Source: Betaproteobacteria bacterium (lineage in GTDB: Bacteria; Pseudomonadota; Gammaproteobacteria; Burkholderiales; Rhodocyclaceae). From it: 57,349 nucleotides of DNA. Both the position numbers and the translations under genes were made by a program. The notes beneath the pieces are model-generated. The model saw only the letters and a list, made by a program, of their open reading frames with translations. It made no database searches and was not told where the DNA came from. Shown here in pieces: positions 4,761-14,790 of the stretch. The stretch spans positions 1 to 57,349 of the forward strand of contig WRKX01000003.1 of assembly GCA_009777925.1 (NCBI GenBank), read 5' to 3'. Numbering within the stretch: position 1 is the first letter of the stretch; each line of letters opens with the position of its first letter.

Positions 4761-5840
4761 ATGTTCCCGCGTTTTTTTCCCCTTCGTCTCTTTCCTTCGT
4801 CTGAAATTTTCATGCTCTCTCGCGTTCTCGCTTTCCTCCCCGCGTTCTTCGTAATCGTTGCCGCCTTCTACTACCTTCCTGTTCGCAGCAAGGAACCCAG
4901 CATTGCCGAAATGCCTGCCGCGCAAACCTTCGCGCAGGAAATGCGCGAGAAGCACGGCATGGATGAAGCCGATCTGCTGCGCCGCTTTGCCAGGCTGACG
5001 CCCAACCATCGCGTCCTTAAACTCATTGCTCCGCCCGCTCCCGGCTCCACTTCGCAACGTTCATGGCAACGTTACCGCAGCCGCTTTATTGAACACAAAC
5101 GCATCCAGCAGGGACTTGATTTCTGGCAACAGCACGCCGCCACCCTGAAGCGGGCGGAAGCAGCTTACGGTGTGCCGGCGGAAATCATCGTCGCCATCAT
5201 CGGAGTCGAAACCTTCTACGGGCAGAATACCGGAAGTTTCAACGCCTTTTCCACTCTCACCACCCTCGCTTTTTACGACCCCAATCGCTCCGCTTTTTTC
5301 CGGCAGGAGCTTGAGCAACTTCTGCTTCTGGCGCGTGAAAATAACCGGAACCCGGAAAGCTATACCGGCTCTTACGCGGGCGCGCTTGGCATTCCCCAAT
5401 TCCTGCCCGGCAGCCTGCGCCGCTACGCGGTGGATTTTGACAACGACGGAATCATTGATCTTGCCGACAGCGAAGACGACGCCATCGGCAGCGTCGCCAG
5501 CTTTCTCGCCGCGCACGGCTGGCAAAAAAACGCGCCTATCGCCATTCCCGTCCGCATGCCTGATAATTTGCCGCCGGAAACACTTGCCACCTGGCTGGAA
5601 GGCGGCATTCGCCCGTCTCTCCCCGCGACCGTTCTTTTAGCTGCCGGAGTTGCTGCCGAACCTTTCGAGGGCGCTGACCTCAATGTAACCCTGATTGACC
5701 TCGCTACCCCGGATGTCCCGACTGAATACTGGCTGGGTTTTGAAAATTTTTACGTCCTGACCCGCTACAACCGTTCCAGCTTTTACGCCATGTCGGTCTT
5801 TCAGCTTGCCGAGCAAATCGCCCTGGCAAGAAAACGCTGA
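4761..5840 (+). CDS. mltB: Lytic murein transglycosylase B (MltB family)
   Basis: Cleaves the MurNAc-GlcNAc bond of peptidoglycan, forming 1,6-anhydro ends. The 359-residue product has an N-terminal hydrophobic segment (about residues 19-40 from ATG 4761). The MltB catalytic domain follows, with the catalytic glutamate in GVETFYGQNTGSF near residue 150 and the conserved SYAGALGIPQFLPGS and DFDNDGIIDLADSEDDAIGS stretches. No lipobox cysteine follows the hydrophobic segment, so it is probably membrane-anchored or secreted rather than a lipoprotein. ATG 4812 is an alternative start placing the hydrophobic segment at the very N-terminus. It lies 24 bases after ffh and may be read through from it. 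Confidence 0.92.
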   Translation: MFPRFFPLRLFPSSEIFMLSRVLAFLPAFFVIVAAFYYLPVRSKEPSIAEMPAAQTFAQEMREKHGMDEADLLRRFARLTPNHRVLKLIAPPAPGSTSQRSWQRYRSRFIEHKRIQQGLDFWQQHAATLKRAEAAYGVPAEIIVAIIGVETFYGQNTGSFNAFSTLTTLAFYDPNRSAFFRQELEQLLLLARENNRNPESYTGSYAGALGIPQFLPGSLRRYAVDFDNDGIIDLADSEDDAIGSVASFLAAHGWQKNAPIAIPVRMPDNLPPETLATWLEGGIRPSLPATVLLAAGVAAEPFEGADLNVTLIDLATPDVPTEYWLGFENFYVLTRYNRSSFYAMSVFQLAEQIALARKR

Positions 5841-9485: not shown

Positions 9486-10758
9486 CAGGGCAATCGCATG
9501 AATGCCATTGTTGTAGACTCTCTGGAATACTCGTTTACGATCAGTGGGTTACGAGGGGGGCTGTTCACAGGGGATTGATTTGTGTAGTTTTCTGTCTTTT
9601 TGGAGTGTTCCATGGAGACGGAAGGCAAACTGTGTCTGGCGGACGTATTCGTCTCGATCAGCGACCCGAGACAAGCGGGGAAGGTTAGGCACGATCTGGT
9701 CGAGTTACTGGTGGTGGCGGTCAATGCGGTGCTGGTTGGAGCCTACACCTTCGTTGAGATCGAGCTGTGGGCGAAAGAAAAACTAGACTGGCTGCGGGGC
9801 TACCTCAGGCTGAAAGCGGGTATTCCCTCGCACGACACCTTTGGGCGGCTGTTTGGGTTAATTGATCCAACGCAATTCGAGGCCGCCTTTCGGCGCTGGG
9901 TCGGATCGATCCTCCCCACGCTGGGGGCCGATGCCGTGGTGGCCATTGACGGTAAGAGCAGTCGGCGCACAGGCAAGCTGAATGCGACGCCGCTGCATCT
10001 GGTGAGCGCGTTTGCCGCAGGTGCCGGTTTGGTGCTCGGGCAGCGGGCAACGGCGGCGAAGTCCAATGAAAAGACGACCATTCCTGAACTCCTGGCTACC
10101 TTGGCGCTGGAAGGCTGCATCGTCACGTTCGATGCCATGGGTACCCAGACCAACATCGCCCAAGCGATCCGCAATCGTGGCGCGCATTATGTCCTGGCGC
10201 TCAGGGACAACCAGCCGAGCCTGGCCGATTCGCTGCGCGATCTCTTTGCCCGGTTCAAGGCGGCGCCGGACAGGACACCCCACGCGATGTCCGAAACCGT
10301 GGAGAAGGATCATGGACGAATCGAGACGCGGCGTTGTTATGCCTTCGATCAACTGGCGTGTCTGCATAAACCGGAGCGGTGGCACGATCTGAACTCCTTC
10401 GCGGTGATCGAGTCACAGCGCGAAATCAAGGGCAGGACGACGCTTGCGCAGCGCTACTATCTTTCGAGTCTCGCCCCCGATGCAGATCGCCTCTTGCGGG
10501 CAATCCGCGCTCACTGGAGTATTGAAAACCGACTGCACTGGTGCATGGATGTTGTCTTCGCCGACGATCAAATGCGCGCCCGCACCGGCCATGCCGCCCA
10601 CAACCTCGCCGTGCTCAAGCACATCACTCTGAACCTCATCCGCCTTGACCCTACACCACGAAAGGGCGGCATTAAGGCCCGACGCCTCATCGCCGCAACT
10701 TCCGATTCCTACCGCGCTCAATTGCTCGGGCTGACATGACTTTCATGCGATTGCCCTG
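9486..10758 (+). mobile_element. ISAs1-family insertion sequence, intact
   Basis: Perfect 17-bp inverted ends CAGGGCAATCGCATGAA lie at 9486-9502 and 10742-10758 and enclose one full transposase gene. The 8-10 bases next to the two ends do not match, so the usual target duplication is absent. The right end cuts into an attC site (10759-10804) whose missing part is not found at the left end. Both facts suggest a deletion next to the element after insertion. Confidence 0.92.
9612..10739 (+). CDS. ISAs1-family DDE transposase
   Basis: A 375-residue transposase. The N-terminal associated domain (about 1-100) shows DPRQAGKVRHDLVELL and the typical GIPSHDTFGRLF. The DDE core follows, with aspartates in VVAIDGKSSRRT (near 112) and VTFDAMGTQTNIA (near 178), and the glutamate region HWSIENRLHWCMDVVF (near 305). 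ATG 9612 is chosen over an upstream TTG because GGAG at 9602-9605 gives a sensible ribosome site. The length is that of intact ISAs1 transposases and no disruption is seen, so the element is potentially active. Confidence 0.93.
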   Translation: METEGKLCLADVFVSISDPRQAGKVRHDLVELLVVAVNAVLVGAYTFVEIELWAKEKLDWLRGYLRLKAGIPSHDTFGRLFGLIDPTQFEAAFRRWVGSILPTLGADAVVAIDGKSSRRTGKLNATPLHLVSAFAAGAGLVLGQRATAAKSNEKTTIPELLATLALEGCIVTFDAMGTQTNIAQAIRNRGAHYVLALRDNQPSLADSLRDLFARFKAAPDRTPHAMSETVEKDHGRIETRRCYAFDQLACLHKPERWHDLNSFAVIESQREIKGRTTLAQRYYLSSLAPDADRLLRAIRAHWSIENRLHWCMDVVFADDQMRARTGHAAHNLAVLKHITLNLIRLDPTPRKGGIKARRLIAATSDSYRAQLLGLT

Positions 10759-10804
10759 ACCGGCACCCAAGCGCGAAGCGCGCGGAGTTGAGCATAGTGT
10801 TAGG
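10759..10804 (-). repeat. attC site, truncated by ISAs1 (tRNA cassette)
   Basis: The sequence ACCGGCACCCAAGCGCGAAG onward matches the attC sites at 11105, 12706 and 12963 and ends in GTTAGG at 10799-10804. The half holding CCTAACGTTTATGTT is missing because ISAs1 abuts at 10758. Confidence 0.75.
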
Positions 10805-10940
10805 ATGCCTGGCGAAACCGAACGCACGACCCGAAAAAAATACCACCGTCGCCTGCCAGAGCGGGATGTAACCGCGAGGCTAAACACAAACCGACCACGA
10901 GGCTTGAGCCGTACGAACCCCCTCTTTCGAGGGGACTCGG

Positions 10941-11025
10941 CGGAGAGTATGGGATTCGAACCCATGAAGAGTTTCCTCTTACCGGATTATCAATCCGGCG
11001 CCTTCAGCCACTCGGCCAACTCTGG
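10941..11025 (-). tRNA. Class II tRNA in an integron cassette: serine-type body with GAU (Ile) anticodon
   Basis: On the minus strand 85 bases fold as a long-variable-arm tRNA. The D arm is GCC-GAGTGGCTGAA-GGC and the anticodon arm CCGGA-TTGATAA-TCCGG with anticodon GAT (10989-10991). The variable arm is AAGAG-GAAA-CTCTT, the T arm ATGGG-TTCGAAT-CCCAT, and G73 lies at 10941. The D loop, long arm and G73 are serine-tRNA traits, and SerRS is known to ignore the anticodon, so serine charging is a fair inference while the anticodon reads AUU/AUC. The top two acceptor pairs are C-C mismatches and CCG rather than CCA follows G73, so the molecule may be weakened or decaying. It is in cassette orientation with its own promoter. 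Confidence 0.75.
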
Positions 11026-11063
11026 AAAGACTTGAACCTTTCCACAATTGGCATGATGTCGAA

Positions 11064-11092
11064 ATCATACTCGGAGGCGAGTCACCACGCAA
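11064..11092 (-). promoter_or_regulatory. Candidate promoter of the cassette tRNA
   Basis: On the minus strand TTGCGT (11092-11087) and TATGAT (11069-11064) are separated by exactly 17 bases, and the tRNA 5' end lies about 40 bases downstream. An inverted repeat TGGAAAG-N8-CTTTCCA spans the tRNA 5' boundary and could affect processing. Confidence 0.5.
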
Positions 11093-11104
11093 GCGTCTGC
11101 GCTT

Positions 11105-11190
11105 CCTAACGTTTATGTTAACCGGCACCCAAGCGCGAAGCGATTGGGTGTCCAGCGACCGAAGGGAGCGGGGTTGAACATGTTGTTAGG
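11105..11190 (-). repeat. attC site of the 286-residue-protein cassette
   Basis: This 86-bp imperfect palindrome runs from CCTAACG to TTGTTAGG and contains paired ACCCAA / TTGGGT arms. It is almost identical to the sites at 12706 and 12963, as expected for attC sites from one integron lineage. Confidence 0.85.
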
Positions 11191-11300
11191 ATGCTTGGGT
11201 AGTGCTCAGATACAAGGCTAGCCGAACGCGTGGCCTGCGGAGTATACCGCTTTCGCTCGCCAGAGCGGGGACTGTCAGATCAAGTCTGAACTTCTACAAC

Positions 11301-12161
11301 TTAGCGTATATTCCATGCTAACTTGATTGCCATGGATATGAGGCTTGGAGAAGATGGAGGAATATATTGCTCTTTAAGAACGGTTTCGATCATCTCTTTG
11401 ATGTCTGCATTAGCCCGGGAATCCTCAAAACGATGAAGGAAAACAGTAGTAGTGCCTTGAGCACCTAAGCATGTTTGTTGATATGATTGACTCACATTCC
11501 TACCTCGGAGGAGGTGTATGTGAGCAGTTAACCCGTCAAAATAAACCCTTGCGTAATCAACGGTATTATTTGCATATAGATTGACATCTAGCATTTCCTT
11601 TTGTTCGATAAGAGGTGTTCGATTGTGATGTATGCCTAAAGTAGATAGCTGAAAGAGTTGTATTGGGTATTCTGAAAAATTTCCCGGATTCTTGTTTAGG
11701 ATTTTTAGTCTTAGATCTTCTAGTTCATTGTGATTGAGTATGAAATCCTTAAATTCTGGTCGACTTGACGCGGCTGCCCTCCAAACGATGCTAAGGAAAA
11801 ATAGTTGAAGCGCGTGTGCTTCGTGAATGTCAATTAGGCGGTGGTGCGGCTTTCCATCAACGAGGACTTGGTCATTACTTTTTAGCTCTCTTTCGCTAGA
11901 CCATCCGCTCCATACCAATTTGTATCTACGCAATATATCAATACCTTTTGCGTCGATGTCTGCAAGAATATTTTCACCGGTTTGGGTCACGAGTGCGCTG
12001 TCGTACCAGCTATTCGATCTGCGCTTAGTTTTTGAATCAATTCCTGTCTCCACAAACTTTTCCCCCCTTCGTTCCAAGCGAGTGAGAGCGAGAGGCAATA
12101 TATGCGATTTAACAAACGTGCCTCTTGTTCTTGTGAGTGCGCACAACTGGTTAGGGTTCAT
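11301..12161 (-). CDS. Integron cassette protein, 286 residues, with KSHILP-type N-terminus
   Basis: Function unknown. The N-terminus reads CALTRTRGTFVKSHILPLAL, which resembles the C-x-x-C...KSHIIP start of a group of uncharacterised, possibly nuclease- or defence-related bacterial proteins. Here the second cysteine appears lost. The rest is soluble, with mixed helices, an acidic central part and no membrane segment. It lies alone between two attC sites and is read away from intI, as cassette genes are. Its AT content is clearly higher than that of the flanking core genes, a sign of foreign origin. No good ribosome site is seen before ATG 12161. Confidence 0.75.
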   Translation of the reverse strand: MNPNQLCALTRTRGTFVKSHILPLALTRLERRGEKFVETGIDSKTKRRSNSWYDSALVTQTGENILADIDAKGIDILRRYKLVWSGWSSERELKSNDQVLVDGKPHHRLIDIHEAHALQLFFLSIVWRAAASSRPEFKDFILNHNELEDLRLKILNKNPGNFSEYPIQLFQLSTLGIHHNRTPLIEQKEMLDVNLYANNTVDYARVYFDGLTAHIHLLRGRNVSQSYQQTCLGAQGTTTVFLHRFEDSRANADIKEMIETVLKEQYIPPSSPSLISMAIKLAWNIR

Positions 12162-12699: not shown

Positions 12700-12705
12700 G
12701 CCATG

Positions 12706-12791
12706 CCTAACGTTTATGTTAACCGGCACCCAAGCGCGAAGCGATTGGGTGTCCAGCGACCGAAGGGAGCGAGGTTGAACATGTTGTTAGG
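12706..12791 (-). repeat. attC site of the first 257-bp cassette
   Basis: This 86-bp site with the same ends and arms as 11105-11190 closes the 257-bp unit that extends to 12962. Confidence 0.85.
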
Positions 12792-12943
12792 ACGCTTGGC
12801 GAAACCGAACTCACGCTCAATCGAACGCACGACCCGCAAAGAATACCACCGTCGCCTGCCAGAGCGGGATGTAACCGCGAGGCTGAACGTTGAACGGATG
12901 CAGCGCAAAAGAATGAAGGCGGCATGGATGTGAGGGTGGTCAT
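12719..12943 (-). CDS. Possible cassette ORF, 74 residues, copy 1
   Basis: An open frame in cassette orientation that runs into the attC site. Its twin at 12976-13200 has the same length, but the two proteins differ at 11 of 74 residues while the DNA differs by about 9%. The changes are therefore not biased towards silent sites, which argues against strong selection on this protein. The opposite-strand frame is also open. The unit may be non-coding, carrying a promoter or RNA instead. Confidence 0.25.
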   Translation of the reverse strand: MTTLTSMPPSFFCAASVQRSASRLHPALAGDGGILCGSCVRLSVSSVSPSVLTTCSTSLPSVAGHPIASRLGAG

Positions 12944-12962
12944 GAGTGCGGTGGCCGTGCTG

Positions 12963-13048
12963 CCTAACGTTTATGTTAACCGGCACCCAAGCGCGAAGCG
13001 ATTGGGTGTCCAGCGACCGAAGGGAGCAGTGTTGAACATGTTGTTAGG
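12963..13048 (-). repeat. attC site of the second 257-bp cassette
   Basis: This 86-bp site is nearly identical to the one at 12706-12791. It closes the unit that extends to 13219. Confidence 0.85.
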
Positions 13049-13200
13049 ACGCTTGGCGAAACCGGACTCACGCTCAACCGAACGCACGACCCGCAAAGGA
13101 TACCACTACCGCCTGCTGGAGCGGGATGTGAGCGCGAGGCTGAATATTGAGCGGATGCAGTGCAAGAGAATGAAGGCGGCATGGATGTGGGGGTGGTCAT
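12976..13200 (-). CDS. Possible cassette ORF, 74 residues, copy 2
   Basis: Twin of the frame at 12719-12943, again ending inside its attC site. The predicted product is cysteine- and serine-rich with no recognised domain. Divergence between the twins is largely amino-acid changing, so coding status is doubtful. Confidence 0.25.
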   Translation of the reverse strand: MTTPTSMPPSFSCTASAQYSASRSHPAPAGGSGILCGSCVRLSVSPVSPSVLTTCSTLLPSVAGHPIASRLGAG

Positions 13201-13219
13201 GAACGCGGTGGCCGGGCTG

Positions 13220-13728: not shown

Positions 13729-14790
13729 ATGGAAAATAAACCACCAAAGTTACTGGATCAGTTGCGCGGGGCGATTCGGGCGCGGCATTACAGCATTCGC
13801 ACGGAGAACGTTTATTGCGATTGGGCGCGGCGCTTCATTTTGTTTCACGGCAAGCGCCATCCGCGCGACATGGCGGCGAACGAGGTCACGGCGTTCCTGA
13901 CACATCTGGCGAACGAACGTAATGTGTCCGCTTCGACCCAGAATCAGGCGAAGAGCGCCTTGCTGTTTCTCTACAAGCAGGTGCTCGGCATTGAGTTGCC
14001 GTGGCTGGATGAGATCGTGCAGGCCAGGCGCGGCACGCGCTTGCCGGTGGTGTTAACGCCGCGCGAGGTGCGCGACTTGCTCGGCGCGACGCAAGGCACG
14101 ATGGGGCTTATCGTCGGGTTGTTATAGTGCTTCTCGTAATTATTTTTACCCTTTCTCGCTTGCAGGATAGGATGTCTGAAGGTTGATAGAGTAAGATTAT
14201 TTAGGAAAAGCACTATATACGGAACCGGTATGCGCCTGCTTGAATGCCTGCGTCTACGTGTGAAAGATGTAGAACTGACACGCCGCGAAATTCTGATTCG
14301 AGAGGGCAAGGGTAGCAAGGATCGCGTGACGGTATTACCGGAGAATCTCGTGTTGCCGCTACAGAAGCATTTGACGCGTGTAAAAACATTGCATGACGCG
14401 GATATTGCCGCTGGTTTCGGCGAGGTGTATTTGCCCGACGCACTGGCGCATAAATATCCACGCGCGGCGCGGCAGTGGGGATGGCAGTGGGTGTTTCCGA
14501 GTCCGGTACGCTCGCTGGACCCGCGCTCAGGGGCAGAGCGGCGACATCATATTTATCCCGAAAGCGTGCAACGCGCGGTACGCGAAGCGGCGCGGCATGT
14601 CGGCATCGTCAAGCCGTGCACGCCGCATGTGTTGAGACACAGCTTTGCGACGCACCTGCTCCAGGCCGGTTATGACATCCGCACGGTACAGGAGTTGTTG
14701 GGACACAGCGACGTGAAGACGACCATGATTTACACACATGTGCTCAATCGCGGCGGGCGCGGCGTTGTCAGCCCGCTGGACGCATTGTAA
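13729..14790 (+). pseudogene. intI: Integron integrase IntI, split by a 91-bp MITE
   Basis: A tyrosine recombinase of the integron class. Residues 1-132 end at TAG 14125, contributed by the insertion. Removing 14125-14217 rejoins the frame exactly (GLL then [17 protein letters not shown]), giving a 322-residue enzyme. The catalytic arginine in GTGMRLLE, the lysine in [20 protein letters not shown] and the tyrosine in [11 protein letters not shown] are all present. So is the IntI-specific extra helix around [20 protein letters not shown], which marks it as a true integron integrase and not a XerCD relative. Reading stops at the insertion, so no full enzyme can be made from this copy. Confidence 0.92.
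14125..14215. mobile_element. 91-bp MITE of the IS630 family inside intI
   Basis: Terminal inverted repeats TAGTGCTTCTCGTAATTATT and TAGTGCTTTTCCTAAATAAT match at 16 of 20 positions. A TA duplication flanks the element (14123-14124 and 14216-14217), as produced by IS630/Tc1 transposases. The left end matches the visible end of the IS630 copy at 57143 with one mismatch over 18 bases. It has no coding capacity, so it must have been moved in trans by such an element. Confidence 0.85.

Follow-up and report, generated by a model that had tools for sequence, protein, structure and literature searches.

The pairs G1-C72 and G2-C71 are reported to be absolutely conserved in the tRNA-Ser of E. coli and in most bacterial tRNA-Ser; the determinants read by SerRS comprise G73 and acceptor-stem elements, and it is chiefly the variable arm, not the anticodon, that confers serine identity (PMC9976931). 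Mistranslation is known both for tRNA-Ser given foreign anticodons and for the tRNA-ProX family; tRNA-ProX, from Streptomyces and Kitasatospora, and yeast tRNA-Ser(CAG) pair one isotype's body with an anticodon of a different isotype and retain a chargeable acceptor (PMC11415595). Mobile elements carry tRNA genes too. Phage tRNAs rescue phages from tRNA-degrading defences by supplying a working isotype, as with tRNA-Tyr against retron-Eco7 and tRNA-Lys against PrrC, and altering the anticodon or stem loops of a phage tRNA abolished rescue (PMC11555353). The tRNA genes of tRNA-dependent lysogeny, sometimes tRNA-Ile2-CAT, sit on temperate phages and stand in for a host tRNA of matching isotype that has been disrupted (PMC10865867). 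Attackers of tRNA-Ile are also described: CdiA-CT EC3006 cleaves it (PMC9424206).

In this work, we analyse a tRNA gene in a stretch of 57,349 nucleotides from a Betaproteobacteria bacterium (contig WRKX01000003.1; 'the window' hereafter) and compare it with these systems. With bacterial tRNA-Ser (GCU, GGA, UGA, CGA) it shares the class II body, the D arm, the long variable arm and G73, and it differs in its isoleucine anticodon, in CCG following G73 in place of CCA, and in the loss of G1-C72 and G2-C71. Like tRNA-ProX and yeast tRNA-Ser(CAG) it joins one isotype's body to another's anticodon, whereas its acceptor end is open and hybrids of this kind occur in mobile elements of many phyla. It resembles the phage tRNA-Tyr and tRNA-Lys as a mobile-element tRNA gene with, it is suggested, its own transcription unit; unlike them, it is predicted to be unchargeable. 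Some relatives lie on phages, as lysogeny tRNAs do, whereas the integron-borne window cassette is without a replacing role of that kind. A literature search, with subscription journals mostly outside its reach, found no paper describing such a tRNA.

A serine-type tRNA with an isoleucine anticodon

ARAGORN calls a single tRNA with anticodon gat on the minus strand, from 11025 to 10941 (c[10939,11025]), with the following parts:

10941..11025, minus strand: gene for a tRNA-shaped RNA; its class II body is of serine type, and G73 lies at 10941 (ARAGORN; Rfam RF00005, 48.6 bits; structural parse)
10989..10991, minus strand: anticodon GAU (Ile) (ARAGORN, anticodon at position 35; sequence)
11024..11025, minus strand: positions 1-2 (C, C), mismatched with 72-71 (Rfam, parse)
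10942..10943, minus strand: positions 72-71 (C, C) (Rfam, parse)

This bears out the sequence-only reading, which had described a serine-type class II tRNA with a long variable arm, G73 and anticodon GAU, and C-C mismatches at 1-72 and 2-71; the covariance model accepts the fold, the gathering score of RF00005 being 29. The acceptor strands CCAGAGU/ACUCUCC form Watson-Crick pairs at 3-7, leaving 1-72 and 2-71 both C-C, and the anticodon, long variable and T arms are all paired in the structural parse. Measured against tRNA-Ser, the gene has the long paired variable arm (16 nt), the serine-type D arm and G73, and it lacks G1-C72, G2-C71 and a serine anticodon. Measured against tRNA-Ile, its anticodon loop UUGAUAA (GAU with A37 and A38) is Ile-like, the short variable loop is absent, position 73 is G and not A, and C4-G69, D-stem pair 12-23 and C29-G41 are not Ile-like. 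The intact acceptor stem of the body's own isotype, which marks mistranslating hybrids, is absent. The body is also serine-like by its matches: 14 of 16 matching phage records name a tRNA-Ser feature at the match, and ARAGORN calls tRNA-Ser in all six full-length matches fetched from relatives (an eighth fetched match, L192, was short and left out). A 1-72 mismatch might suggest an initiator-like function, with three G-C pairs expected in the anticodon stem; the anticodon stems here are without them.

One copy of the tRNA was found in the assembly, which also encodes tRNA-Ser with GCU, UGA, GGA and CGA (ARAGORN on fetched loci); by score it ranks 38th of 40 Rfam tRNA matches in the genome. An ordinary tRNA-Ile(GAU) was not among the tRNAs called, which is no evidence of its absence because the assembly consists of 175 contigs and such genes are usually located in rRNA operons.

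The surroundings of the gene are of integron type:

11104..11191, no strand assigned: attC-type repeat, whole, on the upstream side of the tRNA cassette (101-nt repeat family; ends TCCTAAC/GTTAGGA)
10759..10805, no strand assigned: downstream attC-type repeat, with an insertion sequence in place of its outer end (repeat families D3/D4; sequence)
9600..10739, plus strand: transposase of the insertion sequence adjoining the cassette (PF13808, PF01609)
13729..14127, plus strand: integrase, N-terminal piece (PF13495, E 2.7e-31)
14230..14790, plus strand: integrase, C-terminal piece (PF00589, E 1.9e-32)

Direct repeats of 101 nt lie at 11098, 12699 and 12956 (94-95% identical), with shorter ones at 10774, 12207, 12246, 13216 and 13243; from their end motif we take them to be of attC type. 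The integron cassette proposed earlier remains a putative one: attC-type repeats flank the tRNA on both sides and the tyrosine recombinase domains of a putative integron-type integrase lie nearby in two pieces (13729-14790, Pfam), whereas the downstream repeat is cut by the insertion sequence. What interrupts the integrase at 14123-14217 resembles a small transposable element: some 95 bases that carry 33-nt inverted repeats (79% complementary). Two adjacent 257-bp units at 12704-13217 share 91% identity, resemble cassettes in which no clear gene is seen, and have about 70 bases in common with the end of the tRNA cassette (10816-10885). The protein of the neighbouring cassette (11304-12161) matched no Pfam or PADLOC family.

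Relatives and their open acceptor end

The same hybrid of serine body and isoleucine anticodon recurs in distant phyla, phages, plasmids and prophages. A pattern made of the serine D arm and a (G/U)AU anticodon, with A37 included, was found at 26 places in 84,980 species genomes; 22 of these hold a tRNA (all except L007, L015, L022 and L027) and 19 are distinct (L021 and L025 repeat L009; L012 repeats L011). They come from Actinobacteria, Chloroflexi, Verrucomicrobia, Proteobacteria, Acidobacteria, Bacteroidetes, Gemmatimonas, Firmicutes, FCPU426 and Eisenbacteria. In one Opitutaceae chromosome the hybrid occurs at L009, L021 and L025, each time followed by the same sequence, which looks like copying by a mobile element. 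Viral contigs gave 8 places with the same pattern and 26 with a looser one; viral scans for the plasmid-type D arm and for the conserved 5' end gave none. A lambdoid-type prophage carries the hybrid in 11 of 5,426 E. coli genomes, annotated as tRNA-Ile and on the strand opposite to its direct neighbours, and in an Enterobacteriaceae sample 1 of 392 genomes, the source of L018, had it (at most two candidates scored per genome among the matches listed).

The exact 36-base core of the window tRNA has no other match in genome_contigs. Searches of relatives gave matches in 27 of 60 genomes besides its own (28 of 60 with its own genome, G000), and the same cassette was not found among them, the best match outside its own genome (E 4.6e-11, 76%) being confined to the tRNA. 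Among plasmids, blastn with the window sequence matched 14 records, best of all Photobacterium damselae plasmid pPHDD1 (L002), with 77.8% identity over query bases 223-371 in an alignment that reaches into the leader. This relative has anticodon UAU, is mismatched at 1-72 and 2-71 (C-C, U-C), and sits in a Vibrio-type integron: it follows a repeat common in Vibrio plasmids (part of the query matches 98 other records), and in L002 the tRNA and one reading frame lie between two copies of this repeat, at 5830 and 6735. A sequencing or assembly error that hides a normal tRNA in the window is therefore unlikely, since the same two pairs are mismatched on this plasmid. An Arthrobacter plasmid has another such hybrid, with GAU. 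A plasmid search with L011 matched 25 records, the best rows at 74-83% and covering no more than about half of the query; a plasmid search with L018, and phage and E. coli searches with L214, gave no match.

To compare acceptor ends, we passed all sequences through a uniform parser, which yielded 41 distinct (G/U)AU sequences, or 40 after a chance match (L114) was dropped. We call a hybrid open if it has a true mismatch at 1-72 or 2-71; L214 was counted as paired (two G-U) despite its mismatched pair 3. By this measure 31 of 40 Ile-anticodon hybrids are open, against 1 of 41 serine-anticodon tRNAs (a mis-parse) and none of 67 with other anticodons (Fisher 3e-13 and 3e-19, values that are too small because the sequences are partly related and not independent). 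In an ARAGORN-based parse both pairs are Watson-Crick in 60 of 60 tRNA-Ser, and all 19 distinct hybrids from the genome_contigs scan are open. The change falls on either strand: 12 retain CC at 71-72 with an altered 5' side and 19 alter the 3' side.

The rest of the molecule is kept. Open hybrids retain pairs 4-7 and the D stem in 30-31 of 31 cases and pair 3 in 25 of 31. Sequences had been selected for anticodon and T stems that are mostly paired and for a degree of acceptor pairing, but not for the variable arm, so this arm is the fair test of kept structure, and its stem averages 5.77 bp against 2.23 in shuffled sequences. Pairs 4-7 and the other arms being kept, the open end is not general decay. 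G73 is present in 15 of the 31 and lost in 16, and CCA is encoded in 6; A38 occurs in 25 of 31, and A37 throughout the parsed set, as the pattern required. A73 is found in most hybrids that lack a mismatch at 1-72 or 2-71 (7 of 9) and in few that are open (3 of 31; Fisher p 2e-4, too small a value because relatives are non-independent). The combination expected of an efficient serine mistranslator, a paired acceptor with G73, occurs in 2 of 40; these two viral hybrids with GAU, L035 and L204, are the best candidates for true Ile-to-Ser mistranslating tRNAs. Taken together, a structural class of open-ended serine-body hybrids is well supported by these sequence comparisons.

Three further viral scans took in the anticodons NAV, NGB and NTB. 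Among the matches listed, the pooled loci comprise 39 distinct sequences with Ile anticodons (30 open), 6 with Phe anticodon GAA (4 open) and 144 others (3 open); the plasmid copy L002 is omitted from this count, as its D arm differs. The open Phe hybrids, L239, L230, L245 and L283, are all phage-borne serine-type tRNAs, and L239 has the same leader and 3' end as the Ile kind of E. coli. With four such phage relatives, isoleucine would not be the sole target. Class II tRNA-Asn with a long variable arm, GTT, G73 and a paired acceptor is apparently common in viral contigs as well (27 distinct among the matches listed; L042, L064, L079, L339, L411 and others).

Leader and neighbouring genes

Three further features, all on the minus strand, adjoin the window tRNA:

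11064..11092, minus strand: promoter-like element TTGCGT-17-TATGAT (by eye; sub-threshold in a consensus scan)
11026..11052, minus strand: leader with a stem ending at -1 (computed folding)
10919..10934, minus strand: hairpin CCCCUC-GAAA-GAGGGG just past the tRNA 3' end (read from the sequence)

The promoter-like element claimed in the sequence-only reading can be seen by eye, and the claim is weak, as a consensus scan of 10750-11220 returned neither promoter nor terminator; the hairpin was not scored as a terminator because its T run is weak.

By computed folding the leader pairs with the 5' strand of the tRNA: its stem runs on in register into +1 to +11, with 10 of 11 standard pairs, and would therefore compete with the cloverleaf. 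Leader-only stems that end at -1 and extend in register likewise occur in L002 (7/8), L011 (12/13), L014 (7/7) and L009 (9/10); 4 of 15 tested have no such stem, and in further members the stems do not extend. Of the 31 open hybrids, 8 are preceded by a strong leader hairpin (-15 kcal/mol or below), as are 7 of 102 controls, a moderate excess (p 0.007; p 0.001 by Mann-Whitney); L100, a mis-parse, was left out, and by a cruder measure no open sequence beat its shuffled leaders. In the enterobacterial group, E. coli, L211 and L239 have different bodies and yet agree at every position over about 32 leader bases, an identity that reaches the tRNA start and passes it, and the leader hairpin of L018 has a compensated change.

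Hybrids lie in mobile settings, namely an integron, plasmids, prophages and near integrases. Neighbour proteins were picked by eye, so the following counts are not frequencies: in one batch 4 of 10 are phage-type integrases (L018, L028, L006, L024), in a second 4 of 10 hit defence models (two of them at L011, the others at L002 and L003), and a third holds ParA and DNA methyltransferase/HNH proteins, with 5 of 10 blank. No partner nuclease was found among the neighbour proteins tested.

What the hybrids may do

Since SerRS ignores the anticodon, a serine body with an isoleucine anticodon would be toxic unless its charging were broken. The loss of G1-C72 and G2-C71 would keep SerRS from charging such a tRNA well, and poor serylation would mean that no serine is placed at Ile codons; IleRS would probably fail as well, given G73 in place of A73 and the absence of other stem determinants, and the leader hairpin may hinder 5' processing. 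What remains would be a stably tRNA-shaped molecule whose anticodon loop is that of Ile, an RNA that, once made, could act as a decoy and titrate a nuclease, or an attacker of similar kind, directed at the anticodon. For a mobile element, this would make a fitting small gene for protection. On our best reading the window tRNA would be hardly serylated, and a decoy fits it better than an efficient mistranslator. That it is an uncharged decoy, offering the anticodon arm of isoleucine to attackers of tRNA-Ile, is the best of several readings and plausible, though short of probable. The wider proposal is more tentative still: a new class of mobile RNA genes, serine-body decoys with Ile or Phe anticodons, stripped at the acceptor top, uncharged, in some cases clamped by the leader at the 5' strand, spread by integrons, phages and plasmids, and protecting their carriers from enzymes that read the anticodon loop.

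The 31 open hybrids among 40, the kept arms, the mobile settings, the defence-type neighbours and the known attackers of tRNA-Ile speak for a decoy. Against it stand G73 in 15 and encoded CCA in 6 of the 31 open hybrids, both needless for a pure decoy, the Phe anticodon of four phage relatives and the lack of a partner nuclease among the proteins tested, and the invariably serine-like body is left unexplained, the scans having taken in that body only. Moreover, the known anti-nuclease phage tRNAs are functional isotypes, and altered anticodon or stem loops of the phage tRNA abolished rescue (PMC11555353), so supply rather than decoying may be the rule. The sequence-only reading had offered both a mistranslating tRNA and a decoy, with the mismatches as decay or as a limit on charging. 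For efficient mistranslation the comparative evidence is unfavourable, the pairs conserved in tRNA-Ser being lost in 31 of 40 and G73 present in only 15 of 31 open hybrids; decay does not fit mismatches that recur while other arms are kept, and limited charging may occur, most of all in the window's own subgroup, where G73 is retained. A damped mistranslator, charged weakly by SerRS through the long arm and G73 and placing some serine at AUU/AUC, would draw on the anticodon independence of serine identity (PMC9976931), on the precedent of foreign-anticodon tRNA-Ser and tRNA-ProX (PMC11415595), and on the G73 and well-formed variable arm of the window copy; set against the lost pairs, the loss of G73 in 16 of 31 open hybrids and the rarity of paired G73 hybrids, we consider it rather unlikely.

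Other readings make different parts of the molecule matter. If the leader hairpin and the cloverleaf exclude each other, the RNA might be a bistable regulator whose function is switching and not decoying. The in-register stems of the window and four relatives, the leader shared by three enterobacterial members with different bodies and the compensated change in L018 favour this; the excess of strong hairpins is moderate, the cruder measure was no better than shuffled leaders and 4 of 15 lack the stem, and so bistability seems unlikely to be the function. The anticodon loop, with GAU or UAU, A37 throughout and A38 in most open hybrids, would suit a toxin-resistant stand-in tRNA-Ile, charged with isoleucine by an anticodon-reading IleRS while its odd body escapes nucleases, and the paired phage hybrids with A73 may be exactly such tRNAs. 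For the open hybrids we find this quite unlikely, because the discriminator is a strong Ile determinant and is A in just 3 of 31, because C4-G69, pair 12-23 and C29-G41 are un-Ile-like in the window copy, and because an open acceptor end has no evident use in such a tRNA. A decaying tRNA-Ser relic carried along by mobile DNA would account for the low Rfam rank of the window tRNA, its CCG and its mismatched end; it is improbable where only the uppermost acceptor pairs have changed, divergent copies still have paired D, anticodon, variable and T arms, the leader is conserved and the same anticodon class recurs from many bodies.

Annotation pipelines label such genes plain tRNA-Ile, as the E. coli prophage copies illustrate. 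If the hybrids are weakly charged instead of serving as decoys, they would be a widespread mobile source of Ile-to-Ser mistranslation. If they are decoys, part of the mobile tRNA repertoire would not be for decoding, and breaking the two top acceptor pairs would make safe a serine body with a foreign anticodon, which is dangerous because SerRS recognition is anticodon-independent. The decoy reading, if true, would also provide a simple sequence rule to find uncharged tRNA mimics and would point to unknown attackers of tRNA-Ile and tRNA-Phe.
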